Source: Lachnospiraceae bacterium AC2031 (GTDB lineage Bacteria > Bacillota > Clostridia > Lachnospirales > Lachnospiraceae). Taken from it: a stretch of 64,000 nt of DNA. Location of the stretch: assembly GCA_000687975.1 (NCBI GenBank), contig JIAB01000001.1, forward strand, positions 558,001-622,000. The letters are read 5' to 3'. A program made the position numbers and the translations under genes. Of the stretch, positions 29,643 to 63,900 are shown piece after piece (position 1 is the first letter of the stretch; every line of letters begins with the position of its first letter). The notes beneath the pieces are model-generated. The model was not told the origin of the DNA and searched no databases. It saw only the letters and a program-made list of their open reading frames with translations.

Positions 29643-29643
29643 A

Positions 29644-31095
29644 CTATGTCCCGCTGTAATATACTTCAAGAGCTTTATAAAGAGTCTTTCCCGAATCATT
29701 CTTCGGTATCTCTTCAATAAGCTTAACCTTAAAAGCCGAAGGATTCAGCTTAGTCTTAGCTACAACAAAACTCTTTATATCATCGCAAAGTTTTTCTATT
29801 GCCGCATCACCTTCTGAACCTGCAATAAAGATAAACATATGATCATCAACACCGCCACAGGCAACGTCCACGCCTTCGAAATGTCCCTTAATCATTCTTT
29901 CAGTCTCATCAAGATTTACTCTGTTACCAAATATCTTAAGGAATCTCTTCTTTCTTCCCACAATAAAGTAGAATCCATCAGCATCCCTCTTTGCCATATC
30001 TCCAGTCTGAAGAACTCCGCCTCTCTCATCACCAAGGAAAAGATCCTCGCCCTTTTCGGCATAGCCGAGAGTTACATTTGGACCTGAATACACAAGCTCA
30101 CCAGTTGTATCAGCGGCATCAATCTTATTGCCACTTTCATCTATCAGTTCAAAATGTCCACCTGGAATAGCAATACCCATGGAGCCACATTTGGAAACCG
30201 CATACTCGGCTGGAAGATATCCCATACGTGCTGTAGCCTCGCACTGACCATACATGACTATGAACTTCTTTCCATTCTTCTCAGCATAATCAGCATACTT
30301 GCTATGAAGCTCAGGAGTGATCTTTCCACCAGCCTGAGTCATGTAACGAAGGCTTGGAAGATCCATTCGATAAAATCTCAGCTTATCAAGCATCTCATAT
30401 GTATAAGGAACACCGCCGAAGGAAGTCGCCCCAGCTCCCTTAAAGAAGTTCCAGAACTCCTTCTGCATCAGCCCCTTGTCAGTCACAAGAATCTCAGCAC
30501 CAACAAGCAAATGAGAATTAATTATGGAGAGACCATATGTATAATTCATAGGCAGCGTTGTGATCGGCTTTTCCGTCTCGTCTATGGCCAGATACTCTGC
30601 TATTGCCTCTGCATTTGCCTTTACATTCTTATAACTCTGACGAACAAACTTAGGACTGCCCGTGGAGCCAGACGTTGTAAGAAGAAGACAAAGCTCATCA
30701 TTAAGCGGATACTCAACATCATAGTTGGTCTTCACAAGCACAAAACCAAATGCCTGATATACGCTCTCCACGCCTGCTCCAACAAGCTCAGACACACTCT
30801 CCAAAAGAGAGTCAGGAATCCAAACATAAGGTGGCTTATAAAGTGTCAAAAGATTTGCCAGCAATTCACTCTCCAACTCCGCACTAAGCAGCACTGGAAC
30901 CACACCATTATTGATAAATGATGTATATCCCACTATAGAACCCAACGAATTCTGACAAAGTGAAAATACCAGACTCCTTCGACCAATCACACTATATAAT
31001 TTTCTATTTTCTTCCTGCAGCTCGGCATAACTGAGTGTATTTCCGTATTCATCAGTTAAAGCTGCATTATTAGAAAATTTCTGTAAATCCCACAT
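29644..31095 (-). CDS. AMP-forming acyl/aryl ligase (ANL superfamily)
   Basis: The 483-aa product has the ANL core: TTSGSTGSPKF near residue 137, the GQCEATARM adenine region, TGDMAKRDADGFYFIVGRKK near 365, and the C-terminal Lys loop PKNDSGKTLYKAL. It activates a carboxylic acid as acyl-AMP and passes it to CoA or a carrier protein. The substrate cannot be told. It lies one base before the LuxE-LuxC fusion, so the two probably act in one route. An acyl carrier protein is encoded at 47825-48064 and might be the acceptor (inference). Confidence 0.9.
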   Translation of the reverse strand: MWDLQKFSNNAALTDEYGNTLSYAELQEENRKLYSVIGRRSLVFSLCQNSLGSIVGYTSFINNGVVPVLLSAELESELLANLLTLYKPPYVWIPDSLLESVSELVGAGVESVYQAFGFVLVKTNYDVEYPLNDELCLLLTTSGSTGSPKFVRQSYKNVKANAEAIAEYLAIDETEKPITTLPMNYTYGLSIINSHLLVGAEILVTDKGLMQKEFWNFFKGAGATSFGGVPYTYEMLDKLRFYRMDLPSLRYMTQAGGKITPELHSKYADYAEKNGKKFIVMYGQCEATARMGYLPAEYAVSKCGSMGIAIPGGHFELIDESGNKIDAADTTGELVYSGPNVTLGYAEKGEDLFLGDERGGVLQTGDMAKRDADGFYFIVGRKKRFLKIFGNRVNLDETERMIKGHFEGVDVACGGVDDHMFIFIAGSEGDAAIEKLCDDIKSFVVAKTKLNPSAFKVKLIEEIPKNDSGKTLYKALEVYYSGT

Positions 31096-36964: not shown

Positions 36965-36965
36965 T

Positions 36966-38000: not shown

Positions 38001-38012
38001 ATAGCACCTTGA

Positions 38013-39344: not shown

Positions 39345-39348
39345 ATTC

Positions 39349-40119: not shown

Positions 40120-40130
40120 ATAATTCTTTT

Positions 40131-40850: not shown

Positions 40851-40853
40851 AAC

Positions 40854-41954: not shown

Positions 41955-41978
41955 ATTTACGGTTATACTCCTTAAATG

Positions 41979-42866: not shown

Positions 42867-42881
42867 CTTGCACAGCACCTC

Positions 42882-44081: not shown

Positions 44082-44093
44082 ACAACCCCTCTA

Positions 44094-47824: not shown

Positions 47825-48064
47825 CTAGATTTCAACCTCATACTTCTTCATTATCTCAATTCCTTTTTCATAAGAACTGAAATCAATAATATCATCAGTA
47901 TCCATCATGATATCAAATGCATCCTCAAGGCATGCAATAAGTCCCATATGACCTACTGAATCCCATTCAGGGATTCCCTGATACTCAAGTCCTTCTTTAA
48001 CAATATCTGCATCTATTTCAAGTCCTTCAACAAAAGCATTAATGTATTTTTCTTTATTTGTCAT
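47825..48064 (-). CDS. Acyl carrier protein
   Basis: I chose the ATG at 48064 (79 aa, MTNKEKY) with AGGAGG 6 bases upstream. The phosphopantetheine serine is in PEWDSVGHMGLI near residue 36; the rest is four-helix and acidic as expected. No fatty acid synthesis gene is near, so it is a dedicated carrier for this cluster. Possible clients are the AMP ligase at 29644, the LuxE/LuxC enzymes or the aldolase next to it (inference). Confidence 0.9.
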   Translation of the reverse strand: MTNKEKYINAFVEGLEIDADIVKEGLEYQGIPEWDSVGHMGLIACLEDAFDIMMDTDDIIDFSSYEKGIEIMKKYEVEI

Positions 48065-48132
48065 GATTATCCTCCTAAATTCCAAGCATGAGCTCGAAAC
48101 AATTTTTCTTATTCTTTAATGTACGACAACAA

Positions 48133-48927
48133 TTATAATGACAGTGTAGATCCAGCTATCTCTAGTCTCTCAGCCATCATCTTAAGTCTTGCCTGATCTT
48201 CTTTTGCCATTCTGTCATAGTACTCACATTTATTTTTAAGATATAGAGTTTCAAACTCCATAGCTTTAAGTATTCCATCTTTTAACTTCTTTTCATCATC
48301 TGTTCCATGGAATACAACTTTTCTAGTTTCAAATCTGTCATTTGTTGGATACATATTCTTGATAAAAGGAATCGCATCAAATGATATACCACCACCGAAG
48401 TTTACCATGTAACCAGCTTCTTTTGCTCTCTTAGCTATGTCCTGAGTAACGCCGAACATCTGGTCACTATTTATCTCTGCTCTTGTAAGTCCCATTGATG
48501 CTGAAAGATCAACACGACCTATAGATACTGTAGAGAGGAAGTCCTTTCCCTCTTCAAATATATCGTCAAGGTTCTCATGACATGTCTTTGTCTCAGCATT
48601 TATGATCCACTCGATATCTTTCCAGTTATCTCCGTAGACCTTCTTAGCTGCATTCTTGAACTTGCTCATAGCAAAAGGAGACTCAATCATTGGAGCCATA
48701 ATTCCTGATGCACCAAGAAGCTTGCACTGATCTATATCACGAACAGCCTCACATCCACCAATCTTAATATATAGCTTCATGTCAGCTCTAAAGATAATCT
48801 CATTAAGCATTACAAGTTCATCAGTTCTGCTTCCTTCTGCTTCAAATTCCGCCTTAATTGCTATTATGTCATGTTCATCCTTTAAATATCTTAGGATATC
48901 TAACATCTTTTTTTCTGTATTATTCAT
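48133..48927 (-). CDS. HpcH/HpaI-type aldolase/citrate lyase family enzyme
   Basis: The 264-aa TIM-barrel protein has KLYIKIGGCEAVRDI, ASGIMAPMIESPFAMSKF and SIGRVDLSASMG, the pattern of the metal-dependent HpcH/CitE superfamily that forms or breaks C-C bonds between a 2-keto acid or acyl-thioester enolate and an aldehyde. It lies between the acyl carrier protein gene and a GNAT gene. An aldehyde from LuxC could be a partner (inference). Some such proteins are lyases and not aldolases. Confidence 0.8.
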   Translation of the reverse strand: MNNTEKKMLDILRYLKDEHDIIAIKAEFEAEGSRTDELVMLNEIIFRADMKLYIKIGGCEAVRDIDQCKLLGASGIMAPMIESPFAMSKFKNAAKKVYGDNWKDIEWIINAETKTCHENLDDIFEEGKDFLSTVSIGRVDLSASMGLTRAEINSDQMFGVTQDIAKRAKEAGYMVNFGGGISFDAIPFIKNMYPTNDRFETRKVVFHGTDDEKKLKDGILKAMEFETLYLKNKCEYYDRMAKEDQARLKMMAERLEIAGSTLSL

Positions 48928-48947
48928 TTAGTTCCCCTTTTAGCGTA

Positions 48948-49664
48948 TTATATATGTTTAACGAAAACATGTTCTATAGAATAAGGTTTATAACCATTCA
49001 TTATAAGCGCCTTAAACTGTCCAACATTATTGGATGAAACAGTGGTAACAACTCTCTTTCCACCCAAGGCCTTCGTTATTTCCTGTTCTTTCTGAATAAT
49101 TCCAATTCCAGATTTTCTGTATTTTTGATAACCACCACCTAGAATTGAACTGTAAGTTATCTGGTCCTTCGTGTCGAGAACAACAAAGCCAGTACTATCA
49201 TCTCTGTACCGTATAGCGTAGAACCTTGCCCCTTTATTGCGCAAGTCCTTCGACCAATTAATATATCTGTTAGCTGCCTTTTCTTTACCAAAGTGTGGGT
49301 CATTCGATATTCTATCACTATCAAACATTCCGTCTTTAATCTCAGTAATAAGCTGCTCAAAATCTTCATCGTTCATTTCACGATAGGTTGTTTCATCATA
49401 TAATCTTTGTATGATTCGATTTCTTTCAACTTCCTTTAAATCATGTTCTACATGAATTAAATCTTCAATATAGAGAAACCCAAGTTCTTGAACAATACTG
49501 TTAAATTCGGATAGATCAGATGGAACTTTAATAACAATATAATCCCCATCAATGTTTTCTATCTGTTGTTTTACTTCATCTATATTGTCACCCGTTTCTA
49601 TGCTTAATTCATAAGCATTAACTCCAAGATTCTTCTTCTCCCAAACGGCGTTTACTATTCTCAT
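48948..49664 (-). CDS. GNAT-family sugar N-acetyltransferase, WecD-like
   Basis: The 238-aa product has an N-terminal domain and a C-terminal GNAT fold with DRISNDPHFGKEKAANRYINW, a stretch that recalls WecD/RffC, and KSGIGIIQKEQEI at the acetyl-CoA site. WecD acetylates dTDP-Fuc4N made by WecE; a WecE-like enzyme is encoded at 59618-60754, so the pair may work in series. The start overlaps the glycosyltransferase gene by 47 bases, with AAAGG just upstream of the ATG. Confidence 0.75.
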   Translation of the reverse strand: MRIVNAVWEKKNLGVNAYELSIETGDNIDEVKQQIENIDGDYIVIKVPSDLSEFNSIVQELGFLYIEDLIHVEHDLKEVERNRIIQRLYDETTYREMNDEDFEQLITEIKDGMFDSDRISNDPHFGKEKAANRYINWSKDLRNKGARFYAIRYRDDSTGFVVLDTKDQITYSSILGGGYQKYRKSGIGIIQKEQEITKALGGKRVVTTVSSNNVGQFKALIMNGYKPYSIEHVFVKHI

Positions 49665-50610
49665 TACCTTTTATTTCCTTAATTACATATTGTGGAGAAT
49701 TATTGATACATATATAGATTCTTCCAACATACTCTCCTATCAGTCCAAGCATTATCATTATTATTCCACCAATAATCAGAATAATTGAAATAGTCGAACT
49801 CCAACCAGCCTCCATATTTGGTGAAATAAAAAGCTTTCGAATAATAGTGATCAAAGCATATATAAAACCAACAAATGCGAAGAAAAATCCAGCATACGAA
49901 CCCAGTCTAAGAGGTTTTATAGAAAATGCAGTGAAACCATTAAGCCAGAGATTAATAAGTCCACGAAACGAATAGCCTGATCTTCCTTCCATTCTGTCAC
50001 GATGTTCAACAAAGACAAAGCCTATATTTCTAGTTGCCCTAAATACAAGACCTCCCATATATGGATAAGGATTTCCATATTTGATTACTTCTTGTATTAT
50101 GAATCTTCTGGCTACGAAATAACTACTGCCTTGGTTATTATCCTTTGCTTTAACATCAAACATATAATCTGACATAGCTTTTGCAAATCTTGATCCAAGC
50201 TTTCTTATTATATTTTGATGAACCTCACCATACGATGCATAGACAACATCATATCCCTTTTCCAATTCATCTATCAAACTATAGACTTCACAGGCAGGAG
50301 TCTGTCCATCATCATCAAGCGATACCACATAATCACCTGAGCAATAATGATATCCCGCAAGAAGCGCTGAATGTTGTCCAAAATTTTTAGCAAAATTTAT
50401 ACCTATAATATTATCATTTTCCTTTGATAATTTTGCTATAACATCCCATACACCATCTGGCGAACAGTCATTTACAAGTACAATCTCGAAATCAAAACCC
50501 TTTCGAGTTTTTACAGTATCCTGTATTTCTTTTACTACCGTCTCTATAGTATTCTGAGATCTATAACATGGTATAACAAATGATATTAATTTATTAGATT
50601 GGTTTTCCAT
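49618..50610 (-). CDS. GT2 family polyprenyl-phosphate glycosyltransferase
   Basis: I chose the ATG at 50610 (330 aa, MENQSNK), with TTGGAG upstream; it overlaps the TPP-enzyme stop by 17 bases. The GT-A core has FVIPCYRSQNTIE, VLVNDCSPDG and the DxD-type VVSLDDDGQTP. Two C-terminal membrane helices (about residues 224-246 and 265-290) are typical of GtrB/DPM1-like enzymes that charge polyprenyl phosphate with a sugar. Such lipid-linked sugars are the donors for GT-C enzymes like the two YfhO-type proteins that flank the region. Confidence 0.92.
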   Translation of the reverse strand: MENQSNKLISFVIPCYRSQNTIETVVKEIQDTVKTRKGFDFEIVLVNDCSPDGVWDVIAKLSKENDNIIGINFAKNFGQHSALLAGYHYCSGDYVVSLDDDGQTPACEVYSLIDELEKGYDVVYASYGEVHQNIIRKLGSRFAKAMSDYMFDVKAKDNNQGSSYFVARRFIIQEVIKYGNPYPYMGGLVFRATRNIGFVFVEHRDRMEGRSGYSFRGLINLWLNGFTAFSIKPLRLGSYAGFFFAFVGFIYALITIIRKLFISPNMEAGWSSTISIILIIGGIIMIMLGLIGEYVGRIYICINNSPQYVIKEIKGNENSKRRLGEEESWS

Positions 50611-52423
50611 AACTTGTCTCCAATGGTTCAACAATCATTTCTTCAAAGAAAGTATCTCTATCAATAAATGGAGATTGATCTTCTATAGGTCTAAATCCAA
50701 CCTTTCTTTTTCCATACATAACTAGTGCATTATGAAGATCGAACTGTTCAGGATCGGTCATAATTTCAAGCACATATGGTGAATCTGAACTAAACATATC
50801 AACTATAGCTTTATCCAAAGAATTAAGCTTATCTACTTTAGAATAGCGAATACCAAACGCATCGGATATCTTTCCAAAATCAGGAAAATCAAGACCATTT
50901 GTCTCATCAGTACCAATCGATTTTCCTCTAAAATGTGCTTTTTGTCCGTGACGAACACCTGAATACCCATTATTATTTATAATTACTAACTTTATATTAT
51001 AATTATTTCTAACAATAGTTTGAAGTTCCTGAAGATTCATCATAAAAGAACCATCGCCTTCAAATGCTATCACAGGCTTTTCAGTAGCTGAAGCAACTCC
51101 ACACGCTCCTGGAACAGAGAATCCCATCTCTCCCTGAGCAAAAGAATGAACTAAACCGTCCCCTTCTTTAAATATGGTACATGCCGTTGCTGCTGCACCT
51201 GTAAATCCAGCATCAGATACAACAACTGATCCTAATGGCATGCTTTCAGTCACTCGTCTCATTGCAAACTTAGCATCAAGCAATTCATTTGCTGTATAAG
51301 GATTGCTATAGTCATCAAAGAGAGATTTCCAATAATTACACTTATCAATCCAAGCTTGTTCAGTATGATATATAGAACTATCATTTACGGATTCTAAGTT
51401 TTGGTTTATATCATCAAGAAATACTTTTGCATCAGATATGATCAGTTTATCAATCTTTACTCCTGCCTTCTTATGTTCTAGCTCGTCAATATCAACCACA
51501 TATATTTTAGCTTCTCTTGCAAAGGTATCTGAATTACTTCCTATAGTATCCTTGCACAGTCTTGAGCCAATTGATATCAAGAGATCACTATTTTGCACAG
51601 CAAAATTCGCATATCTTTGTCCACCAGCAGCTCCATTTAAAACACCCATATTATATGGAGCATCATATGGCATCATATCGTAGGTTCTTCTAGAGAAGGT
51701 AACCGGAATATGAGTCAACTCAACAAACTTTTTCATCTCATCTATAGCGCCAGCACTTCTTACGCCATATCCGATATGAAGAATAGGTCTCTTGGCCTCT
51801 TTTATCGCCTTAAGAACTTCCTCTATATCATTACCAGATACAGCAGAAAATGTTTCAGTATTATCTGGCACAAATCTTTCCAGTTTTTCCTCATCCACCA
51901 TTGCATTTTGCACATTCAATGGTACATCAACCCATACTGGTCCTTTTCGTCCTTCTCGCGCCATATAGATAGCTTTATCAATATGATAAGCAATCTCTTC
52001 AGCACTTGGTACAGTAACTGCATATTTAGTAATAGGTGAAACAATCCTCTCAGTATCAGCTTCCTGTATACCCACCTGTCGTAAAGGAAGTCCTGATGCT
52101 TTTATAGTATTCTCATAATTCTGCTGACCTGATATTACTATCATAGGAATGCTATCTTGCCACGCATGAAGAACCCCTGTTAATGTATTAGTCCCAGCGC
52201 AGCCAGTAGTAACGAGGCACGCACCAAAATTATTTGTATATTCCGAGTAAGAAAGTGCAGCCATAGCACACGCCTGCTCATGGTGCATAGCGACCGGGGT
52301 TATATCTTCACTTCTTCGAAGAGCATCACATAAATAGACACATTGTCCACCTGCCACATAAAAAAGCTGTTTCACTCCCTCTTCAGCTATACGTTTTATT
52401 ATATAATCAGCTACTCTAATCAT
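50594..52423 (-). CDS. Acetolactate-synthase-like thiamine diphosphate enzyme
   Basis: The 609-aa product has three TPP-fold domains: MHHEQACAMAALSYSE (catalytic Glu near residue 45), a central domain, and the TPP/Mg site FEGDGSFMMNLQELQTIVRN near 454 followed by NNNGYSGVRHGQ. It is not next to ilvN or ilvC. Related enzymes in sugar clusters (YerE type) attach a two-carbon unit from pyruvate to a keto sugar, making branched sugars. That role is inferred here from the glycan context. Confidence 0.88.
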   Translation of the reverse strand: MIRVADYIIKRIAEEGVKQLFYVAGGQCVYLCDALRRSEDITPVAMHHEQACAMAALSYSEYTNNFGACLVTTGCAGTNTLTGVLHAWQDSIPMIVISGQQNYENTIKASGLPLRQVGIQEADTERIVSPITKYAVTVPSAEEIAYHIDKAIYMAREGRKGPVWVDVPLNVQNAMVDEEKLERFVPDNTETFSAVSGNDIEEVLKAIKEAKRPILHIGYGVRSAGAIDEMKKFVELTHIPVTFSRRTYDMMPYDAPYNMGVLNGAAGGQRYANFAVQNSDLLISIGSRLCKDTIGSNSDTFAREAKIYVVDIDELEHKKAGVKIDKLIISDAKVFLDDINQNLESVNDSSIYHTEQAWIDKCNYWKSLFDDYSNPYTANELLDAKFAMRRVTESMPLGSVVVSDAGFTGAAATACTIFKEGDGLVHSFAQGEMGFSVPGACGVASATEKPVIAFEGDGSFMMNLQELQTIVRNNYNIKLVIINNNGYSGVRHGQKAHFRGKSIGTDETNGLDFPDFGKISDAFGIRYSKVDKLNSLDKAIVDMFSSDSPYVLEIMTDPEQFDLHNALVMYGKRKVGFRPIEDQSPFIDRDTFFEEMIVEPLETSYGKPI

Positions 52424-52444
52424 TTTATTGCCCCATGTTTACTT

Positions 52445-53575
52445 CTAGTTTTTAGGAATTGCCCATAGTATGGTATGAAAACCACATCTAAGATAAAAAT
52501 CATAATCACATCCCAAGCTATTAATATACTTTGGAATATCAATAACATCATTCTTTCTGTGATATACACAGATAGCTAGAAACGGTGTATGCTCCTTTAT
52601 TATATTTTCTGCACCTCTAAGTGCATCCATTTCAGATCCCTCAATATCCATCTTGATATATAATCGACCTTTAATATCAAGACCCAGATCATCCATTCTT
52701 CGAATCTCTAGTTTTAATCCTTCAAACCCTTCATCCACATCAATAAAGCGTCCTGCATCCTTTTGTTTGTTATCTGGAAGTTCAAATCCTAAGGTCGCAT
52801 TTTTGTTTCCGACACCATATTCCAAAACATCTAGTTTAAAACACGCCTTATTAAAATCAGGATTATTTCTTATTATCTCTGCATTTTCCTGATCAGGTTC
52901 GTATGCATAATAGATAACCTTTTCTTCTGGAATATCATTACAAATCTGTAATATGTTATCTCCAATATATGCTCCACAATCAAATATCGTAGCAAATTCT
53001 TCATTTGTTCCATTAAAATCATATGTATCCCAGTAAGTTTCAGCAAAATAATACATATCTTTTATCTCTGGATAACTTACTAATTCAAATGAATCTTTTT
53101 CAGAATCATAAGTTTTGGAAGATCTAAGTTTATCAAAAATCCTTAAAGATTCCTCATCTTTAAAATATCCTCTAATTTCATCATATATACTATCAGTTAC
53201 AGGAATACGTGTTTCTGAAGCAAAATCGTCATTCATTACACATGGTCTAAGACAAGTATATGGATTAGGTAAAATCAATTTGTTGTAATCAAATCCACAT
53301 ACATTTCCATAGTAATCAATTATTCCAAGTGACTGAAATGCATTTATTGCAAGTATTGCACATACATCATCACGTTCTAAAATATCCTTATATTCAGAAA
53401 GATTTTTAACTTCTACATCTCGATATGATGTTTTCTTTCTAGTTGTCTCATCCAGATTATCAGCAACTCCTAAAAGTTCAAGTCCACTTTCTAGAAGCTG
53501 TGGAGTCATTCTATCTGCGACTACTCCTGCACCAATTAACACATATCCTTTGTAAGCATCTAAAACATTTGACAT
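52445..53575 (-). CDS. FkbM-family methyltransferase with N-terminal nucleotide-fold domain
   Basis: The start may be the ATG at 53575 (376 aa) or the one at 53584; GAGAGG is 11 and 2 bases away, so the first is better. An N-terminal Rossmann-like region (YVLIGAGVVADRMTPQLLE) is followed by the SAM domain (FDCGAYIGDN near residue 197) and the FkbM ending IKMDIEGSEMDALRGAENII. It probably O-methylates a sugar. The N-terminal part resembles a nucleotide-sugar dehydratase-like fold seen in other FkbM fusions. Confidence 0.85.
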   Translation of the reverse strand: MSNVLDAYKGYVLIGAGVVADRMTPQLLESGLELLGVADNLDETTRKKTSYRDVEVKNLSEYKDILERDDVCAILAINAFQSLGIIDYYGNVCGFDYNKLILPNPYTCLRPCVMNDDFASETRIPVTDSIYDEIRGYFKDEESLRIFDKLRSSKTYDSEKDSFELVSYPEIKDMYYFAETYWDTYDFNGTNEEFATIFDCGAYIGDNILQICNDIPEEKVIYYAYEPDQENAEIIRNNPDFNKACFKLDVLEYGVGNKNATLGFELPDNKQKDAGRFIDVDEGFEGLKLEIRRMDDLGLDIKGRLYIKMDIEGSEMDALRGAENIIKEHTPFLAICVYHRKNDVIDIPKYINSLGCDYDFYLRCGFHTILWAIPKN

Positions 53576-53602
53576 TTTTACCATAACCTCTCACTAAAAT
53601 AA

Positions 53603-54364
53603 TTATCTAAGTCCGCCATCAGCTCTAATAACCTGAGCTGTAATAAATGAAGCCATATCTGAAGAGAGAAAAGCAACTGTATCAGCTATCTCTCTTGGTT
53701 CACCCTTCCTCTTCATTATATTCATAGAAAGAGCGATTTTTTCATCTTCTTCATTCATGCTGTTACCCATATCGGTAGCTGTAAGTCCAGGAGCCACAGC
53801 ATTGACTCTTATATTATACGGACCATATTCAACAGCAAGTCTCTTAACTTCACCTATTATAGCCGCCTTACTAGCCGAATACTCAATATTTGCGCCACCA
53901 TCATAGGCCGCTGAAGAAGAAACAAAAACAATGCTTCCACTCTTACTACGCATCATACTTCGAGCGAGTAACTGTGTTAGAAGCATTGGTCCAAAAAGAT
54001 TCACTTCAAATGCGCTCTTTATTGTATCCATCTTGGTCATAGCAAAAGAATTAAGAGGATTACTCATACCAGCGTTATTTACAAGTATGTCGATATTCTT
54101 CTTATTTCCTTCACTATCCTTATATCCCAGGATACTTTTAGCACCTTCACGTATTTCATCCTCATTTGACAGATCCATGTATACAGGAATAATAGTCACC
54201 TTATACTCTGTCATAAGACCTTCAATAAAAGAAGTGAATTCATTATTCTCTTTTCTTACTACCGCGAATACATCCGCGCCATTCTTTGCAAAGTTTTCCA
54301 GAATTGCCTTTCCAATTCCCCTGTTGCAGCCTGTTACGACTGCAGTCTTACCTTCTAATATCAT
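53603..54364 (-). CDS. Short-chain dehydrogenase/reductase (SDR copy 1)
   Basis: The 253-aa product has TGCNRGIGKAILENF at the NADPH site, the NNAG motif, and the catalytic Ser plus YSASK near residue 155. The ending FLSSDMASFITAQVIRADGG is FabG-like. It is a clear paralogue of the SDR at 58762-59562. Position, directly after luxC, suggests reduction of a ketone formed in the same route (inference). Confidence 0.92.
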   Translation of the reverse strand: MILEGKTAVVTGCNRGIGKAILENFAKNGADVFAVVRKENNEFTSFIEGLMTEYKVTIIPVYMDLSNEDEIREGAKSILGYKDSEGNKKNIDILVNNAGMSNPLNSFAMTKMDTIKSAFEVNLFGPMLLTQLLARSMMRSKSGSIVFVSSSAAYDGGANIEYSASKAAIIGEVKRLAVEYGPYNIRVNAVAPGLTATDMGNSMNEEDEKIALSMNIMKRKGEPREIADTVAFLSSDMASFITAQVIRADGGLR

Positions 54365-54411
54365 ATTGTAACCCTGTCGTTTTTATTTCTAGTAAAATTT
54401 TATATCATAGA

Positions 54412-55659
54412 CTATCTGGTATAAATATATACCACCCTGGACATCTGTTCTATCATCCTGTAGCCATCCCAGGTAAACTCAAGCCCCATAGTATCTCCGA
54501 TATCAACAACTCGGTCTACACCACGAACACCTTTATCCATGACAAAATCTACCATATCATTTTTGTCTATGCCAAGAACCGCGACCGTCTGGCAGTTCTT
54601 GCCCATAATAGATATTATATCATTTATTGAGCTTGCTGTGAACTCGAAGAAGTAACCTCCGCCCATCTTGTAATCCATCACATCATCACTTAGTTCATCC
54701 AAGGATATGATATAAAGCTTATTGCTTTTCTTCTCTAGATGCACACCATCTTTCTTCATCGAAAGCTCAGTAAACATGGACAGTTTATCAATAGCCTGAA
54801 TAGGCTGCATTTCATAACCTGAATCAACTTCTTTAGCAAGAGCATTCCAAAACGAATCCCTTACCTCTTTTGTTCTACTAGCTTTATCTTCAAGCCATAT
54901 TACAATTCTAGGTGAACTACATGCATTCTGATCAGAATAATATGTATCCGTATAGAACTTCTTGGCAAGCTCTGTCATTTTATCGTCCGAAATATTACCA
55001 TCCTCAGTAATATAGTCCAAGTATTCTTCAGGTCTTATTACCGCTATGGAATGTCTATCAGCAAAACACATTTCAATAGCTCTTGGTGGTATCGGATAAC
55101 GTCTTATCTGTTCTATAGTCCTGTCACCGCCCCAGATAATACGCACATCACATATGGATGAAAGATACCCAGTTATCTCGTCAGAGTGTTCGTATCTCAT
55201 TATACAGATATATTGTTTCATCTGTGTGAACTCATCCTGTGAAAACACCCTGTTTATTGCCGAGCAGATTATGTCAACCTCTTCAAAGGTCTTTTGTGAA
55301 ACTCGTATTACCGTTATATTTCCTGCAAGCAGCGATGATGTCATAGAAACAGCAAAGTTAACTGGAACATTAGATGGAGCAATATGAAATGCCACTCCTC
55401 TTCCAATTCTATGAATATCATCTCTTTCCGTATCTTTTCTAGCCTGTTCAACTGAGGCCTTTCTAATCCAATACGCATACGACATTACGTCTGTATGATT
55501 TCTTATTCCAGGAACAGAAAGGAGTTCCTTAGAAAGTGCCGAAAGAAATCCTACCACCAAATCAGAGAATATAGGAAGTGCAGGTGTCCTTGGTGCATTT
55601 TCTAAAGTCTCAGCATCACCAACAAGATATTTAATTTTATCTAACACCTCTTTATTCAT
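54412..55659 (-). CDS. LuxC-type acyl reductase
   Basis: The 415-aa product matches the C-terminal half of the fusion at 27264-29642. It has HIAPSNVPVNFAVS near residue 90 and YYSDQNACSSPRIVIW with the nucleophilic Cys near residue 244. LuxC accepts an acyl group from LuxE on its Cys and reduces it with NADPH to an aldehyde. It lies 9 bases after luxE. No luxA, luxB or luxD is present, so light production is not the purpose. Confidence 0.92.
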   Translation of the reverse strand: MNKEVLDKIKYLVGDAETLENAPRTPALPIFSDLVVGFLSALSKELLSVPGIRNHTDVMSYAYWIRKASVEQARKDTERDDIHRIGRGVAFHIAPSNVPVNFAVSMTSSLLAGNITVIRVSQKTFEEVDIICSAINRVFSQDEFTQMKQYICIMRYEHSDEITGYLSSICDVRIIWGGDRTIEQIRRYPIPPRAIEMCFADRHSIAVIRPEEYLDYITEDGNISDDKMTELAKKFYTDTYYSDQNACSSPRIVIWLEDKASRTKEVRDSFWNALAKEVDSGYEMQPIQAIDKLSMFTELSMKKDGVHLEKKSNKLYIISLDELSDDVMDYKMGGGYFFEFTASSINDIISIMGKNCQTVAVLGIDKNDMVDFVMDKGVRGVDRVVDIGDTMGLEFTWDGYRMIEQMSRVVYIYTR

Positions 55660-55668
55660 ATAAACTCT

Positions 55669-56757
55669 CTAATACTTCATCTTATCAGCATATGTATCGC
55701 TGCAGCCTCTTAGCTCAGCACTTTTTAGTCTTCCAAGTATCTGAATATACTTTCCTTTTCTACCACATGGACAATCATCCTCGCCTAGGATTAAGCCTTC
55801 ATCTTCAGTAAGCAGCGAATGTCCAGGATATGAATGAGGGAGAACTGATACAGTCTGTATTATTCCCTTTTCTCCAATCCCTTTTAGTGAGAAGTCATTT
55901 GCATCTCTAATAAATACATCTGAATAATTACTAGCATGCAGGTGACCACACTCACATTCAGCATATATACAACCTGTCTGCTCAACCATTGCATAATGAT
56001 CCAGGAAATGTTTGATACCAAATGTATCAGTTATTCTCTTCTTGAATTCATCCTGGGATATGCTGTCAGAAACCAGTTTCTTCCAGCCTCCACCAGTCAT
56101 AAGAAAAGCTTCAGAAAGGTCATAAGGCTCTAAGGCTTCTGAACCATATAACGCCTGATAAAAATGCTGCCACACAATAAATGTAAATCCAAAGATAATA
56201 AATCTCTGTCCACTATACTTATCTAGAAAAGCTTTTACAGCTTCAACATTAAGACTCATATCATCATTCAGCGCATATACAATATCACGCGCAACAATCT
56301 GAAGACCCATGATAGCCGCTCCACGAGCAGTAAACTGCTGTCGGTTACGTACAGTCTCCTTGGAGTCTATAACAAGCATAGGAAGTTGCTTCTTTCCCCA
56401 GTAGTCGCTAAGGATCTTAACAAGCACCTTTTGCTGTATCAAAGCAGTCTCTTTATCGACAAATATCTTAGACACTCTCTGCCCAGTAGTTCCAGATGAA
56501 GTCATAGTCTTAAATACTTCTTCTCTTGGAATACTCAGTAAGTCAACATCCTTAAAAGCACGCACCGGGAAAAATGGAATATCCGCAGGAGTCTTTACTA
56601 AGGACTCATCATATCCGATTGCCTTAAGATACCTTGCATATTCAGGACAACTCTCCTGATGTCTTCTAGTTAGTTCAATCAGTTCAGAGGTAAGCTTCTC
56701 AGCCTTTTCTTCTTTATTCAGTTCATATGGTTCTAATTCATAAAAATCTTCAATCAT
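55669..56757 (-). CDS. LuxE-type acyl-protein synthetase
   Basis: The 362-aa product matches the N-terminal half of the LuxE-LuxC fusion. The adenylation loop MTSSGTTGQRVSKIF is near residue 85, YAMVEQTGCIYAECECGH near 265 and CPCGRKGKYIQILGR near 320. The Cys in RGCSDTYADKMKY lies about ten residues from the C-terminus, where Vibrio LuxE carries its acyl-accepting Cys. It activates a carboxylic acid with ATP and hands the acyl group to LuxC. The ribosome site is poor, which suggests coupling to the transketolase gene 30 bases upstream. Confidence 0.92.
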   Translation of the reverse strand: MIEDFYELEPYELNKEEKAEKLTSELIELTRRHQESCPEYARYLKAIGYDESLVKTPADIPFFPVRAFKDVDLLSIPREEVFKTMTSSGTTGQRVSKIFVDKETALIQQKVLVKILSDYWGKKQLPMLVIDSKETVRNRQQFTARGAAIMGLQIVARDIVYALNDDMSLNVEAVKAFLDKYSGQRFIIFGFTFIVWQHFYQALYGSEALEPYDLSEAFLMTGGGWKKLVSDSISQDEFKKRITDTFGIKHFLDHYAMVEQTGCIYAECECGHLHASNYSDVFIRDANDFSLKGIGEKGIIQTVSVLPHSYPGHSLLTEDEGLILGEDDCPCGRKGKYIQILGRLKSAELRGCSDTYADKMKY

Positions 56758-56787
56758 AATTACTAAATTATAAACTTAAAAGTTTAA

Positions 56788-57804
56788 CTACTTCGAAATC
56801 TCCTCTTTAATTCTTTCTGCTATTTTTTCAGTCGATAGACCAGCCTCATCTAATACAAAGTCCTGATTTCCTGCTGGATAGAAAGAATCATTGAATCCTA
56901 TAAACACCTGACGAGGAGCACTTTCCTTTGTAGCCTTATACTCTGCAACAGCACTGCCCATGCCACCAAGTACATTATGCTCTTCTACCGTAATAACCAG
57001 ATCTGAATCAGCAAATATCTTATCAAGTCCCTCTTTATCAAGAGGCTTTATTGTGTGCATATTATACACTGAAAAACTTACATCATTTTGCTGCTCGTTT
57101 AATTCATCTTCTATCTTTTTAACAGCGTCCAAGATTCTCGAAACCATAAGACCTGTAGCGATAATACTAACCTTTTTTGCCGACCCCTTTGATTCGTTCA
57201 TTTCTGAAGAAACTAAAGGTACCAGCTTTCCAGGAATAAAATCATAATCCTCACGATAAACGATAGGACAATTAAGTCCGCCACTAAGACGAATATACAT
57301 AGGACCTTCAGTCTTTGCCGCATATTCTATAATCTTTATAGCCTCTAGACTATCTGCTGGAGAAAAAACCTGCATATTAGGAAGAACCCTTGTAAATGCT
57401 ATATCCTCAGTCGCCCAGTGTGAAACGCCTGACTTTGCAGCCACTACACCAGCTGCGGATCCAATAAGCTTAACATTACATCCCAAATATGAAAGATGCT
57501 GTCTTACAAACTCTAAAGACCTAACAGCAATAAATGATGCATAAGTTGTAGCAAATACATTGTATCCACTCATAGCAAGGCCGGCTGATATACCAATCAT
57601 GTTCTGCTCTGCTATACCCACATTTAGGAACTTCTCTGGAAACTTTTGAATAAACCTATCCATTCCAGAAAGCAGTGATAGATCAGCAGTAACAAGCTTC
57701 AGATTATCAGCAGTTTCTCCAATCTCAGGAAATGCTATTCCAAATACCGCTCCACGCTGACCAAGCATAGACCATTTTCTTATATTAGCGGAGGTTACGT
57801 TCAT
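56788..57804 (-). CDS. Transketolase, C-terminal subunit
   Basis: The 338-aa product has the pyrimidine-binding domain (FLNVGIAEQNMIGISAGLA near residue 62, catalytic Glu) and the C-terminal domain (VEEHNVLGGMGSAVAEY). It pairs with the N-terminal subunit, whose gene overlaps by 4 bases. Split transketolases of this kind are found both in the pentose pathway and in sugar clusters. Here it probably moves a two-carbon ketol unit onto an aldehyde made by LuxE/LuxC (inference). Confidence 0.92.
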   Translation of the reverse strand: MNVTSANIRKWSMLGQRGAVFGIAFPEIGETADNLKLVTADLSLLSGMDRFIQKFPEKFLNVGIAEQNMIGISAGLAMSGYNVFATTYASFIAVRSLEFVRQHLSYLGCNVKLIGSAAGVVAAKSGVSHWATEDIAFTRVLPNMQVFSPADSLEAIKIIEYAAKTEGPMYIRLSGGLNCPIVYREDYDFIPGKLVPLVSSEMNESKGSAKKVSIIATGLMVSRILDAVKKIEDELNEQQNDVSFSVYNMHTIKPLDKEGLDKIFADSDLVITVEEHNVLGGMGSAVAEYKATKESAPRQVFIGFNDSFYPAGNQDFVLDEAGLSTEKIAERIKEEISK

Positions 57805-58733
57805 TCTGCCACCTCCTCTCCAAGGATCTCAGCCCTTGCAATAATATATTCTTTTTCAGAAAGTCTATGATGATGCCACTCAGGACGACCTTCCATAAAG
57901 GAAACTCCCATACCCTTTATAGTATCAACTATAACTACTTGAGGTTTTCCTACGGCTGTATCACTCAGCTTCCATGATGACTCACAATCACTTATAGATT
58001 CATCCGTTATATATCTTTCATCAAACGCCCTAAGTACATCTCCTACTTCTCGACCATTACAATCAGAGACATACCACCCAAAGCTTCTCATCTTATCGGA
58101 AAGATTACCGAGAGCCATCACTTCTTCAGTATTACCATCATAGGAAAGATGATTCCTATCGATAATAGCTATAAGATTATCCAGCTTATAATGAGCCGCA
58201 GACATGAATGCCTCCCATATGGAGCCCTCATTTAACTCGGCATCACCCATCAAAACATAAAACTTACGTCTAACTTTCCAGTCAAGATTACTTTCTTCCT
58301 TCTCTTTCTCTGCTAAAGCCATACCTATAGACACAGGAAGTGCCATCCCTAGACTACCACCAGAATACTCGAGACCAATCTCAGGTCTATATGGATATCC
58401 TGCGAGACGTCCACCATTCTTTTGGAACTCAAGACATTCTTCCTTTGATATCATTCCTGCCTCAGCAAGAGCAGGAATATGTGCCAACACGCAATGATTC
58501 TTGCTAGGAATAAAGATATCTCTATCTTTCGATAAGGCATCCTTATCGTTCTCAGATTTATGTAAACTAAGAATCTCACCATAGAGTACTGCGAGGATTT
58601 CCATACAGGAGAAACTTCCACCAAGATGTGAGCCCCCATTTCCTGTGGAAAGTGCCATATCAAGACCAAGGAGTCTCATTCTCTTGGTCATCTCAGTAAG
58701 TCTATTAATATTGTCAGAAGATAAATTATACAT
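57801..58733 (-). CDS. Transketolase, N-terminal subunit
   Basis: The 310-aa product binds the diphosphate of TPP: GDAELNEGSIWEAFMSA near residue 165, with the later DRN, and HLGGSFSCMEIL near residue 33. It needs the C-terminal subunit for activity. The start lies 28 bases after the SDR gene. Confidence 0.93.
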   Translation of the reverse strand: MYNLSSDNINRLTEMTKRMRLLGLDMALSTGNGGSHLGGSFSCMEILAVLYGEILSLHKSENDKDALSKDRDIFIPSKNHCVLAHIPALAEAGMISKEECLEFQKNGGRLAGYPYRPEIGLEYSGGSLGMALPVSIGMALAEKEKEESNLDWKVRRKFYVLMGDAELNEGSIWEAFMSAAHYKLDNLIAIIDRNHLSYDGNTEEVMALGNLSDKMRSFGWYVSDCNGREVGDVLRAFDERYITDESISDCESSWKLSDTAVGKPQVVIVDTIKGMGVSFMEGRPEWHHHRLSEKEYIIARAEILGEEVAE

Positions 58734-58761: not shown

Positions 58762-59562
58762 CTATATTAACCGTCCACCATCAGCATTTATAATACTTCC
58801 TGTTATGAAAGACGAAGCATCTGTTGAAAGGAAATATACAACATCAGCTATCTCCTCAGGAGAACCCTTACGCTTCATACTGATAGCATCCAGTATCTTC
58901 TGCTGTTCAATATCATTTTTAAAGTCGCCCATATCGGTTTCAATAAGCCCTGGTGCAACAGCATTAACCCTTATTTTATAAGGAGCAAGTTCCTTAGATA
59001 TGCATCTGGTAGACCACATAAATGCAGCCTTACTTGATCCATATGCAAGATATCCTTCTCTTGCTTCTATGCCTCCTACAGAACCAATATTTACTATGGC
59101 TCGAGATTTAAATACTGCCTCAGAATCAGTCTCAACCGACTCCTTTAATTCCTTGTTAAACTCACGGATCATTAACTTAGATATCTTCTGAATAAGTGAT
59201 ATCTGTCCTATAAAATTCACTTCCATAACATCACGCAAAGTATCAAGTGATGTCATCTGCATAAGTCCTCCACTTGGAACACCTGCATTGTTAACAAGAA
59301 TATCTATCCCCTGCTTATTTCCATCATCATCCTTCGTAGATGAGATAACCTTCACAGCAGCCTTAATTGACTCTTCGCTACGGAGGTCCATTTCTATAGG
59401 AATTATCCAGCATTCACTACCTTTACAGATGCCTTCCATATCCTTAGCAAAGGAATCATCCATATGACTTGTAGCTGCCCATACATTAATTCCGCTATCT
59501 ATAAACTTTTTAACTATAGCCCGGCCAATACCTCGTCGAGCCCCTGTAACTATTGCATTCAT
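58762..59562 (-). CDS. Short-chain dehydrogenase/reductase (SDR copy 2)
   Basis: I chose the ATG at 59562 (266 aa, MNAIVTGARRG) with AAAGGA 8 bases upstream. TGARRGIGRAI binds NADPH, NNAG follows, and the catalytic YGSSK is near residue 173. It is paralogous to the SDR at 53603-54364 (IRVNAVAPGL, EEIADVVYFLS) but carries an insertion before the active site. The two SDR genes bracket the transketolase and LuxE/LuxC genes. Confidence 0.92.
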   Translation of the reverse strand: MNAIVTGARRGIGRAIVKKFIDSGINVWAATSHMDDSFAKDMEGICKGSECWIIPIEMDLRSEESIKAAVKVISSTKDDDGNKQGIDILVNNAGVPSGGLMQMTSLDTLRDVMEVNFIGQISLIQKISKLMIREFNKELKESVETDSEAVFKSRAIVNIGSVGGIEAREGYLAYGSSKAAFMWSTRCISKELAPYKIRVNAVAPGLIETDMGDFKNDIEQQKILDAISMKRKGSPEEIADVVYFLSTDASSFITGSIINADGGRLI

Positions 59563-59617
59563 ATATGAATCCTTTAAATATCTTCCCATTGGTTTTAGAA
59601 AGAAAAATCATTACACA

Positions 59618-60754
59618 TTATGGTGTCAATCCGTAGAACTTCTTAAGTGTTCCGATAATATAACTCTGCGTACTTTCATCAAGATCAAAGTAGAGTGGAA
59701 GTCTCACAAGCCTCTCACTCTCTTTTGTTGTATACTTATCCTCACCTCTAAACTCTCCAAACATCTTTCCAGCTGGAGCCTGATGAAGTGGTATATAATG
59801 GAATACAGCCAGAATATCATTATCCTTCATGTAGTTAATTAGTCTTGTTCGCTCATCAAGATTTCTGGTCTTAACATAGAATATATGAGCATTATGCTTA
59901 CATTCTTCAGGTATAATCGGAAGTTCAATAATTCCCATATCCATAAGAGGCTTTAATTCCTCGTAATATCTATTCCATATAGCCATTCTCTTATCATATA
60001 TCTCATCTGCTATCTCAAGCTGTGCCCAAAGGTATGCGGCAAGGATATCACTTGGAAGATAAGATGAACCCATATCCATCCATGTATACTTATCTATCTC
60101 TCCACGATAGAACTTACTTCGATTAGTACCCTTCTCACGAAGAATCTCAGCTCTTTCAAAAAGATCTTTATGATTAAGAAGAATAGCTCCACCTTCGCCC
60201 ATTGAATAGTTCTTGGTCTCGTGGAAACTGAAGCATCCAATATCTCCTATAGAACCAAGAGCACGCCCCTTATATTCAGACATGACACCCTGAGCAGCAT
60301 CTTCTATCACTGGAATATTGTGTCGACGAGCTATATCCAGTATTGTATCCATTTCACAGGCAACACCTGCATAATGAACAGGAACTATGGCCTTAGTCTT
60401 ATCAGTGATTGCAGCTTCTATCAATGTTTCGTCCATATTCATGGTATCAGGACGAATATCAACATATATAATCTTCGCTCCTCTAAGGACAAATGCATTC
60501 GCAGTTGAAACAAAAGTAAAGGACGGCATGATCACTTCATCCCCCGGCTTAATCCCCAAAAGAAGTGCTGCCATCTCTAAACTATGCGAACAGGACGTAG
60601 TAAGCATAACCTTTGGAGAACCTGTTCGAACCTCAAACCAACGATCACAGAACTTGGTATACTTACCATCTCCACAGATTTTCTTATTATTTACAGCATC
60701 CTGCATATATTCAAAAACTTTCTCCGTAAACGGAGCAACGTTATAACTTATCAT
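59618..60754 (-). CDS. WecE-like dTDP-4-keto-6-deoxysugar aminotransferase
   Basis: The 378-aa DegT-family enzyme has the PLP lysine in FHETKNYSMGEGG near residue 180 and the stretches LREKGTNRSKFYRG and YTWMDMGSSYLPSD, which closely resemble WecE/RffA. WecE turns dTDP-4-keto-6-deoxyglucose into dTDP-Fuc4N. No rmlA or rmlB is in the window, so the substrate must come from elsewhere. It is the first gene of the long glycan transcript. A branched keto sugar made by the neighbouring TPP enzymes is a possible alternative substrate. Confidence 0.9.
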   Translation of the reverse strand: MISYNVAPFTEKVFEYMQDAVNNKKICGDGKYTKFCDRWFEVRTGSPKVMLTTSCSHSLEMAALLLGIKPGDEVIMPSFTFVSTANAFVLRGAKIIYVDIRPDTMNMDETLIEAAITDKTKAIVPVHYAGVACEMDTILDIARRHNIPVIEDAAQGVMSEYKGRALGSIGDIGCFSFHETKNYSMGEGGAILLNHKDLFERAEILREKGTNRSKFYRGEIDKYTWMDMGSSYLPSDILAAYLWAQLEIADEIYDKRMAIWNRYYEELKPLMDMGIIELPIIPEECKHNAHIFYVKTRNLDERTRLINYMKDNDILAVFHYIPLHQAPAGKMFGEFRGEDKYTTKESERLVRLPLYFDLDESTQSYIIGTLKKFYGLTP

Positions 60755-60903: not shown

Positions 60904-60942
60904 GAAAGTTAGCACTTTATTTACACAACGTGGAGGATGATG

Positions 60943-63900
60943 ATGAGTAATACTGAATCAAAAAAGAAAAAAGAGACTGAAAAGAAAAGAACTGAATTAA
61001 AGATAAATAAGCTATATATTATATCTTTCCTATTATCAGTTTTTGTTGCAATCCTCAGTTTCATTGTCTGTGGATTCGCCCCTTTCGGCGACAAGGATAT
61101 ATTAACTGCCAACGGAAACGCTGGTTATATAACTAACTATCTAAAACTATACGACTTTGTTCATAATAACCTTAACAGTTCAGAGATAGGTGAACTATAT
61201 TCTTTTTATATGACAGATCCAACTAATATCATAACTTTGATATTTCCTAGAGCTGCCATCGTTGGAGTACTAAGCGTACTATATGTGATAAAGCTCGGAT
61301 TTGCCTCACTTCTTACCACTCTATATTTTGATAAGAAACAATCAGCTAATAAAAAGAGTAATCTTGTTACTCTTCTTCTTTCTGTAGCATACTCCCTCTC
61401 AGGATTTATGCTTACTTATGGTACCAGCATATCATACTTATCAGTAATTGTTCTTCTTCCACTAATCGTACTCTTCTTCGAGGATATGATATACGAAAGA
61501 AAATGGCTTCGATTCTATATTGTTCTTTCAATATCATTTATTTTAAATGTATATACAACATTTATCGTTACACTTTTTCTTTGCTTATATCTATTAGTAA
61601 TTAACTATAAAAACAAGAAGCATATCTTTGACGCAGTTGTGTTCACATTTGGATCCATACTTCTATCCATAATGTCAACCCTCTTTGTTATCATGCCTGT
61701 TATAAATACTAATCTTTCTTTCTTCCAGAAGGAAGCACCTTATAATTCAACTATAAATGGCTTCTTTGATTATTTCAAAAGATATCTGTTTTTATCAGAA
61801 CCATCTTCAATAACTGATACTGACTATGGAATAGATCTATACCTAGGATTACTTGGAATCCTTTTGGTAATCATCTACTTTGTTAATCCAAGCTTTAATG
61901 TTTTCAAAAAGATTCGTGTTTTCCTACTAATCGCAATTCTTTCAGCAGGAACCTTCATGACTGGTCCAAATTCTATACTGGACTTCTTTGCAAACAAAGA
62001 GAGAAACTCATGTCACTTTGCTTTCTGTCTTATATTCCTTATCCTTATTCTGTCATATGAAGTATTGGATAATATTGAAAATATAAAACTACTATCTGTA
62101 ATTCTTTCTGGAGTTCTTCTAGAGGGACTTATTATTGCATCACTCATTTTCTCGCATACGTATTATCATTCAAATCCTTTCATCTATTCAATTGAGATAG
62201 CTCTTCTCTATACCCTGATTCTAGTCGTTATGGTATTAAAGATAAAAGGATATAAGGCACATCATGCAGGCTTACTGATCATCGGTATACTGGAAATCAT
62301 TCTTACATTCTTTACAGGATGCTTAAGTCTTTCAAAAACAGAATCAACATACACGAACAGCTATAGCTTCAATAAATATGCTGTAGAGATGAATTATAAA
62401 GATTCTACCATCCTAGACTACAACCAATGGGATGACTACTTTAATCCAGTATTGAATGTAATAAATGGATATGAATATGTAATGATTGCATCTGGAAAAG
62501 ATATTCCTGATGCATGTTTAGAGTTCGATCAAACTATTGGACGAATAGATATTTATAAGAATCCAAATGCAAAAAATGAACCTATCTTTGTTTCAAATGA
62601 TATATTGAACTGGACATACAGTAAGACCAGTACTTATCCTTCAATGAATAGTTTAGCAAGTATTGTAGCATCTAAAGATATCAAAATATTTAATAAAATA
62701 TATGGTATCACTTCGACACTAGCTGACAACTATACAGACGAAGTTGGAAATAAATTAAACGATATTGAATACGCTAAGATTCAATACGATGTAAGTGAGG
62801 AAGGTTATATATACACCAATTATATAAGACCTTCATATCTTGGAGCCTATTCAAGCGAATCTCCAATTATCAAGGATTATATTATTCCATACTACCATTC
62901 CCAGTACTGTTACTTTGATAATAAAACCTACTATACGTTTGATAACGATGCTTATTTAGATTTCTGTAACAATATAAAATATATCGAAAATGGTGCCCAA
63001 ATTCCAGAAAAAGGTTATATCATCGTTCCAGGAAACGACAAACCTTTATATGACGTAAAAATCGATGGAAAAACTATCACTCCAATACATATTGATAGTT
63101 CTCTTTTTGTTGTTCCAGTTGATTCAAACAACAGTATTGAATTAGTTGAAGGATCAACTCATACAAGCATGTTGTTCTATTTTATATCTATCATTACTTT
63201 CATTGCTGTATTATTGATCAATAAATTTAAACTTTGTTTCAAACTTATTAAATCTATATATAACAAAGCTGAAAACATCTGTAGAAATAACTATGTTTAT
63301 ATTATATCTACAATCGTTCCTCTCATGGTGGTTATTTTGTCATCTTACTTTTGGTCCTGTACTCCTTTTGGAAAAACCTCAGCTATGGCATCTGATGGAT
63401 ATGTTCAGACTTATCCAGCTATTGCTGAAATGATCAAAGGACTAAATCTAAAAAGCTTACTCCCATCCACAATCGGATTTGGAACTCTAATTTATAGTTC
63501 AGGTTCAGATCCAATTACTGGATTTATTTCAACATTGATTCAATTATTCTATAGATTATTTATATGGACAAATGATGGCAATCTTTATACAACGATATGG
63601 GCAACCATATACTTTGTATATTCAGGCCCTGCTATCGTATTCTACTTCACACATAGATATTCAGGCAAAAGAATTGACAAGCGAAATCCACTGTTAATTC
63701 TAATCGCGTTACTCTATTCACTATGCTCATATTCAATAGGTTACTTTATCTTTAACAACTTTATATATGGGCTATATACTCCGATAATAATATATGCGCT
63801 TGAACGACTAATCTATAAGAAAAAACCATTTATATATATATTAGCGCTCTCTTTCATAATGATGCGAGGTTATTATTCAGCATTTCTTTTATGCGAATTT

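Follow-up and report, generated by a model that had tools for sequence, protein, structure and literature searches.

A unit formed by LuxE, LuxC, a split transketolase and a short-chain dehydrogenase/reductase (SDR) was identified in a surface-glycan locus of Lachnospiraceae bacterium AC2031, within a stretch of 64,000 nucleotides that is referred to below as the window (positions 558001 to 622000 of the first contig of the 3.19-Mb genome). That the unit is conserved is supported by its recurrence in other genomes, and its transketolase is altered at two substrate residues that housekeeping relatives retain. On balance, the operon segment probably produces an unusual acyl group and links it, as a side chain, to a 4-amino sugar of a surface glycan.

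Between positions 60754 and 47825, thirteen genes follow one another head to tail on the minus strand, separated by short gaps or slightly overlapping. Their order is WecE, SDR1, TKN and TKC (the N- and C-terminal halves of the split transketolase), LuxE, LuxC, SDR2, FkbM, a thiamine pyrophosphate (TPP) enzyme, a GT2 glycosyltransferase, a WecD-fold protein of 238 amino acids, HpcH and an acyl carrier protein (ACP). Domains were called by Pfam and NCBIfam scans of the window proteins (Table 1). The initial annotation had placed its named genes here as a co-directional set with intact active-site motifs; this was confirmed, none of the thirteen genes contains an internal stop, and C352 of LuxE, C247 of LuxC and E411 of the transketolase are retained. 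C352 is invariant in 10 alignment rows and aligns with the GCS cysteine of the luminous LuxE 7xc6, and C247 is invariant in 14 alignment rows. Parts that the annotation had missed are an AMP-binding ligase and a LuxE-LuxC fusion outside its coordinates (27264-31095) and the WecD-fold acyltransferase, which it had left unnamed.

Genomes were scanned with a 10-row LuxE alignment, which returned at least 587 relatives; the best 80 were kept and represent 78 distinct loci, by design those nearest to the query, several of which stop at contig ends. Gene presence was determined by BLAST and by clustering of non-overlapping open reading frames (ORFs) of at least 75 amino acids, and neighbour clusters without a prior name were named from one representative each. 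The set includes near-copies (L054/L055 and L112/L114), and L056 holds two copies. The most frequent clusters in the 78 loci were LuxE (75), LuxC (73), AMP ligase (66), SDR (62), ACP (62), TKC (45) and TKN (45), followed by DegT/WecE transaminase (33), WecD-fold protein (21), GT2 (20), thioesterase (TE; 19), NeuD/VioB type (17), TPP enzyme (13), NeuB (13), FkbM (12), FabA-like (11), RmlB-like (9), lactate/malate dehydrogenase (9) and KASIII (8). Loci L104, L111 and L121 fall outside the LuxE cluster, yet LuxE was matched there by BLAST. Both transketolase halves were found in 45 loci, and the loci with transketolase span five named phyla. As a rough yardstick for chance, to be read with the nearness of these loci to the query in mind, 21 relatives, about 53 Mb in all, gave 52 above-cut-off Transketolase_C matches of whatever type, or approximately 0.02 expected per 21-kb locus.

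Two arrangements were distinguished: module A, SDR-TKN-TKC-LuxE-LuxC-SDR, which is that of the window, and module B, [SDR-TKN-TKC]-ACP-AMP-[TE]-LuxE-LuxC. The order SDR-TKN-TKC-LuxE-LuxC was counted in 16 loci, TKN-TKC-ACP-AMP in 14 and ACP-AMP-(TE)-LuxE-LuxC in 29, and the two modules stand in tandem in L060, L062, L063, L064 and L076. The co-occurrence of LuxE, LuxC, split transketolase and SDR that the initial annotation had proposed to look for is thus conserved. Among 22 copies of module A (21 loci), LuxC and an SDR were present within 6.5 kb on the same strand in all 22, and TKN with TKC in 18; no transketolase lies nearby in L061 (where LuxE stands at the very start of the contig), L065, L069 (where the pair is in another part of the locus) and L079. 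ACP, AMP ligase, LuxE and LuxC occur together in 57 of the 78 loci. At least one carbon-carbon ligase (transketolase, NeuB-like, TPP lyase, aldolase or KASIII) was also present in 57, with transketolase in 45 of these. A WecD-fold or NeuD/VioB-type protein was present in 38 loci, together with a DegT transaminase in 21.

Within the genus of the host, a strong LuxE match (E below 1e-100) was obtained in 7 of 61 genomes, host included, a patchy presence that fits a surface-polysaccharide locus. In four of the others with such a match, module A stands behind WecE with its gene order unchanged, and in two of the four the ligase and the fusion are also present, apart from it; this comparison partly repeats L049, L050 and L051 (genomes G447, G457 and G402). 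In a phylum sample PF04443 matched 99 of 398 genomes, 36 of them above the cut-off and many only over a short stretch at the C-terminus. Five loci of more distant LuxE-family proteins (L038 and L043-L046; 4 to 20 kb each) showed no transketolase. No LuxE was confirmed on viruses, where a single-protein scan that reaches close relatives only gave three pattern matches.

The best solved relative of TKC is the split transketolase of Carboxydothermus hydrogenoformans (6yaj, 1.4e-97), and all three transketolase domains, with the catalytic Glu and His residues, are present in TKN and TKC. A reading of the split enzyme as 1-deoxy-D-xylulose 5-phosphate synthase (DXS) was rejected, the score being 329.7 bits to split transketolase versus 173.4 to the best DXS. 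The host has a separate housekeeping split transketolase elsewhere in its genome, and a DXS inside the window. Residues were numbered according to Escherichia coli TktA and counted after one of 51 TKC sequences (235 amino acids) had been dropped; the resulting 50 exclude the window and L035, both of which also lack H461 and D469. The equivalent of H461 was never His and that of D469 never Asp in the 50 module homologues, in which the first position is occupied by S, A, T, G and others and the second by L, S, F and others; the window TKC has A and S, respectively. E411 was retained in all 50, H473 in 48 and R358 in 34. In TKN, the equivalents of H26, H66 and H261 were retained in all 52 homologues and H100 in 28, with Tyr in 17 of them and in the window. 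In contrast, both H461 and D469 are retained in seven of seven housekeeping split transketolases, in TktA and in one full-length enzyme, and the Carboxydothermus enzyme keeps T-H-A ... G-E-D-G at these places. The R520 column, considered as a second phosphate residue, was dropped because the housekeeping enzyme has the same letter, apparently through an alignment shift. In a TKC tree, obtained by a quick method and with some long branches, 54 rows (the 50 that come from the 78 loci, together with the window, L035 and two split enzymes whose genomes gave no strong LuxE match) separate from the housekeeping enzymes with an SH-aLRT (Shimodaira-Hasegawa-like approximate likelihood ratio test) support of 92; within them a tighter branch of 19 rows around the LuxE-adjacent ones has a support of 96, three of the 19 being labelled otherwise by the position rule.

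H461 binds the phosphate of the substrate. Loss of H461 and D469 is as expected for an enzyme with a non-phosphorylated aldehyde acceptor. When the E. coli enzyme was subjected to directed evolution, better activity was obtained with H461S on glycolaldehyde and propanal and with D469T and D469A on propanal, and kcat/Km for propanal rose with D469S (PMC3657141); another study describes changes at S385, D469 and R520 on the way from phosphorylated to simple aldehydes (PMC5073344). The natural change at two directed-evolution positions is the strongest hint that the acceptor of the module transketolase may be the aldehyde formed by LuxC. The proposal of the initial annotation that an aldehyde is joined to another carbon unit is thus well supported by the conserved unit and by the loss of H461 and D469.

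In the route that we favour, LuxE would use ATP to activate a small carboxylic acid, probably one with a hydroxyl group, and pass the acyl group to its own cysteine, LuxC would reduce the LuxE-bound acyl group to the aldehyde, and the split transketolase, as its conserved adjacency and residue losses suggest, would add a two-carbon ketol unit to this non-phosphorylated aldehyde. SDR1 and SDR2 may then reduce the ketone, and the AMP ligase could load the free carboxyl end onto the ACP. WecE, as its family membership strongly suggests, would make dTDP-4-amino-4,6-dideoxyhexose, to whose amine the enzyme with the predicted WecD fold may move the acyl group; the TPP enzyme, HpcH and FkbM could tailor the chain or the sugar further. 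The LuxE-LuxC fusion would run a separate reduction of the Vibrio cholerae tetronate type.

Several observations bear on the acyl side of this route. The NCBIfam cut-offs for long-chain equivalogs were missed by both LuxE (77.4 versus 550 bits) and LuxC (40.5 versus 750). The ACP match is weak taken alone (20.9 of 66 bits in NCBIfam, 13.3 of 20.8 in Pfam); the protein is 39-63% identical to ACPs in eight distant LuxE loci. The ACP, ligase, thioesterase, FabA-like, KASIII and lactate/malate dehydrogenase neighbours indicate acyl-chain chemistry, and the combination of ACP, AMP ligase and WecD-fold acyltransferase points to an acyl side chain and not to a branched sugar. RmlB, which makes the usual substrate of WecE, was above its cut-off in the host genome. 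The predicted model of the acyltransferase shows a WecD fold across the whole chain; in alignment the protein is 18% identical to WecD itself, the TDP-fucosamine acetyltransferase 2fs5, and falls under the family cut-off. The analogy with V. cholerae O1, taken with the 38 loci that contain a WecD-fold or NeuD/VioB-type protein, argues for an N-acyl side chain on the WecE sugar. More tentatively, such loci may represent a widespread modular reduce-and-extend chain builder, in which LuxE and LuxC would supply an aldehyde, SDRs would reduce the extended product, and its transfer to an amino sugar would fall to ACP, ligase and an enzyme of WecD or VioB type. On this tentative view the carbon-carbon ligase might be exchangeable among an altered split transketolase, a NeuB-like enzyme, a TPP lyase, an aldolase and KASIII. 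If malate were the starter, the acyl residue would be C6H10O5 by our own arithmetic, which is the mass of a hexose and would therefore be missed by mass spectrometry alone.

A number of points weigh against the favoured route. The transketolase product has a CH2OH end, so that its conversion to an acyl thioester requires a starter with two carboxyls (malate, succinate or the like), which has to be assumed. ACP and AMP ligase lie about 17 kb apart in the window. The transketolase pair is absent from 33 of the 78 loci, some of which end at contig ends, and is thus common, not universal; among the eight nearer-clade loci fetched first (L033-L036 and L039-L042) it was seen in L035 alone. The WecD-fold protein scored 15.6 versus 219 bits for the WecD family PRK10975 and recurs in only 21 loci. 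Three split transketolases whose genomes gave no strong LuxE match (L141, L147 and L154) have also lost H461 and D469, and L147 has no LuxE within about 10 kb; the loss is therefore not exclusive to LuxE clusters. The L147 gene lies at G405:C1:229185-229517, with its flanks in L172.

Among the alternatives, it is rather unlikely that the aldehyde and the two-carbon unit give a polyol, an ulosonic acid or an alkyl substituent that is joined to the glycan in some way other than N-acylation, such as a NeuB-like condensation. Such a product needs no second carboxyl, and a NeuB-family cluster is present in 13 of the 78 loci, in three of them directly before LuxE-LuxC (L079:8967-10004, L081:8977-10008 and L089:7790-8821), where the enzymes perhaps condense phosphoenolpyruvate with the LuxC aldehyde; the L079 representative is under both NCBIfam cut-offs. 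The PseG of the window matched one of the 13 NeuB loci (L060) and its PseF none, these being the partners sought (NeuC type and others were not). Against this, the NeuB-type gene of the window is a PseI above its cut-off and lies in the pseudaminic acid (pse) operon, and the WecD-fold acyltransferase and the ACP need an acyl donor.

An unlikely reading, published for the Gram-negative relatives, is that these are fatty-acid genes, that the glycan carries a lipid ('liposugar') and that LuxE and LuxC reduce a long fatty acid to the aldehyde for the lipid part. It is stated in the available passages of the Aeromonas, Enterobacteriaceae and Dickeya papers, and it agrees with the long-chain substrates for which LuxE and LuxC are named and with the ACP, thioesterase, KASIII and FabA-like neighbours. 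The position of both proteins far under the long-chain cut-offs speaks against it, as does V. cholerae O1, where a LuxE domain is linked to a hydroxy acid of four carbons (PMC4772473, PMC12208996), and a plain lipid would offer no obvious task for an enzyme that transfers ketol units.

The route put forward in the initial annotation, in which the aldehyde gives an extended or branched sugar that is aminated by WecE and methylated by FkbM, now appears improbable. A TPP carboligase and FkbM are indeed present, and the TPP superfamily joins acyl units to carbonyls, but WecE is far above its dTDP-sugar family cut-off with its usual substrate available, the two accessory enzymes are confined to 13 and 12 loci, respectively, and ACP, ligase and acyltransferase, which indicate an acyl chain, would be left unexplained. 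YerE-type branched-sugar synthases act on a CDP-4-keto-3,6-dideoxy sugar. The TPP enzyme, whose best solved relative is 8rph (3.2e-101), missed the acetolactate synthase cut-offs (best 329.7 versus 738 bits) and was under the cut-off in all 25 families listed of 54. The TPP enzyme and FkbM, which the annotation had included in its route, look accessory in view of their 13 and 12 loci; HpcH, found in 1 of 78 loci, was dropped as a core part. A chance gathering of unrelated glycan genes in a fast-changing locus is highly improbable since, although the locus recombines and strong LuxE matches are few in the genus, one gene order is found again in different phyla and the transketolases share their residue losses.

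Evidence for recombination was obtained from identity comparisons. HpcH and ACP (window 47825-48927) are 96-97% identical to those of Lachnospiraceae NE2001 (L049:16738-17857) and the adjacent WecD-fold gene is 47% identical, a sign that the locus has recently recombined. L163 and NE2001 (L165) resemble the window to about the same degree from WecE to LuxC, but in the segment 50594-54364 SDR2 (90 versus 58%) and the TPP enzyme (83 versus 54%) differ sharply between these two comparisons, which reads as allele exchange.

Of the known systems, the tetronate genes of V. cholerae O1 (RfbK/L/M/N/O, VC0248-VC0252), taken by description from partial texts, share with the window an ACP, an AMP ligase, a LuxE-LuxC fusion and a surface-glycan setting. 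There, LuxE-bearing RfbN, carrier RfbK and ligase RfbL are linked to the 2,4-dihydroxybutanoic acid that perosamine carries on its amino group (PMC3441752, PMC12208996, PMC4772473, PMC9201469), and the available passages name an iron alcohol dehydrogenase (RfbM) and no transketolase. The window differs in having a split transketolase, a second LuxE/LuxC pair and SDRs; no iron-containing alcohol dehydrogenase was found among the window proteins scanned, which cover part of its ORFs, and the SDRs may replace RfbM. Nearly the same set as in the window (FkbM, LuxC, LuxE, ligase, two transketolase genes, two FabG, ACP and sugar aminotransferase) is printed for Dickeya zeae, so that the word undescribed in the initial annotation was too strong. 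In the passages available, the genes of that cluster are assigned to fatty acids and sugars and no pathway is proposed; one paper sees a possible role in a flagellin glycan, and an earlier one considers a tie to flagellar biogenesis unlikely (PMC4522980, PMC7575072). The cluster lies next to flagellin in a Gram-negative bacterium, whereas Flagellin_N gave no match in the genome of the present host (4 of 14 controls matched), and a flagellin link was rejected for this host. Aeromonas group II flagellar glycosylation islands share ACP, 3-oxoacyl-ACP reductase, AMP synthetase, LuxE and LuxC and contain pse genes, and strain AH-3 carries an unknown 102-Da unit; the word transketolase is absent from the main text of that paper (PMC7874193, seen in part). 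The LuxC/LuxD/LuxE system of luminous bacteria shares families and conserved cysteines, and a thioesterase stands beside the pair in some relatives of the window; it differs in gene setting, and the LuxE and LuxC of the window lie far under its equivalog cut-offs. No paper proposing an acid-aldehyde-ketol route turned up among the titles and abstract openings listed by literature searches, from which subscription journals were mostly absent, and the Dickeya and Aeromonas passages available propose none. As far as these searches reached, the gene set is already in print and its reading as such a pathway is not.

Downstream of the thirteen genes, on the same strand, lie a flippase-like gene and the pse operon (33286-45089), of which PseB, PseC, PseI and PseG exceed their cut-offs. 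The operon has extra genes for a PIG-L deacetylase (35144), a formyltransferase (35821), a glutamate-1-semialdehyde-aminomutase-like transaminase (38013), a FemAB-like protein (40854) and an aldo/keto reductase (41979). Between the operon and the AMP ligase, an ORF at 32003-33067 has an HPWVDGNGR motif, which we take to be Fic-like. Two large ORFs with many membrane segments, YfhO-like by eye (24328-27255 and 60937-63999, plus strand), flank the long minus-strand run. The starts of the ACP and of the fusion are probably internal to their ORFs (Table 1), because homologues align from about residue 8 and about residue 26, respectively.

Table 1. Genes of the proposed route and associated genes in the window (window coordinates)
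Feature	Position	Strand	Evidence and remarks
WecE-type dTDP-4-keto-6-deoxyglucose transaminase	59618..60754	-	TIGR02379, 633.8 bits vs cut-off 434.85
SDR1, FabG-like reductase, first gene of module A	58762..59589	-	PF13561, 4.1e-45
TKN, N-terminal half of split transketolase	57801..58733	-	Transketolase_N PF00456, 8.3e-27
TKC, C-terminal half of split transketolase	56788..57804	-	Transket_pyr 3.1e-25, Transketolase_C 3.5e-18
LuxE, acyl-AMP/acyl-protein ligase, conserved C352	55669..56757	-	PF04443, 8.7e-51
LuxC, acyl-thioester reductase, conserved C247	54412..55659	-	PF05893, 7.3e-27
SDR2, FabG-like reductase	53603..54364	-	PF13561, 1.5e-51
FkbM methyltransferase, accessory	52445..53584	-	PF05050, 4.2e-11; cluster in 12/78 loci
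TPP-dependent carboligase, acetolactate-synthase superfamily, accessory	50594..52423	-	three TPP-enzyme domains; 13/78 loci
GT2 glycosyltransferase	49618..50634	-	PF00535, 7.6e-25; cluster in 20/78 loci
WecD-fold N-acyltransferase (GNAT), probable acyl transfer to 4-amino sugar	48948..49664	-	predicted fold
HpcH/HpaI-type aldolase homologue, outside conserved set	48133..48927	-	PF03328, 1.4e-8, weak, above cut-off
Acyl carrier protein (ACP)	47825..48085	-	start probably 48064; cluster in 62/78 loci
AMP-binding acyl ligase, module B	29644..31095	-	PF00501, 7.4e-37; cluster in 66/78 loci
LuxE-LuxC fusion, module B	27264..29717	-	PF04443 7.5e-57 and PF05893 1.2e-25 in one ORF; start probably 29642

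LuxE and LuxC genes in glycan islands have so far been filed as fatty-acid or 'liposugar' genes. The conserved association with a transketolase changed at its substrate residues recasts them as a testable route of aldehyde formation and carboligation, which may explain unidentified glycan units such as the 102-Da unit of Aeromonas flagellin; a deoxytetronic acid residue, C4H6O3, has this nominal mass, a match of our own arithmetic and not a test. If the route is true, these loci would yield natural transketolases for non-phosphorylated aldehydes, which are otherwise made by directed evolution.

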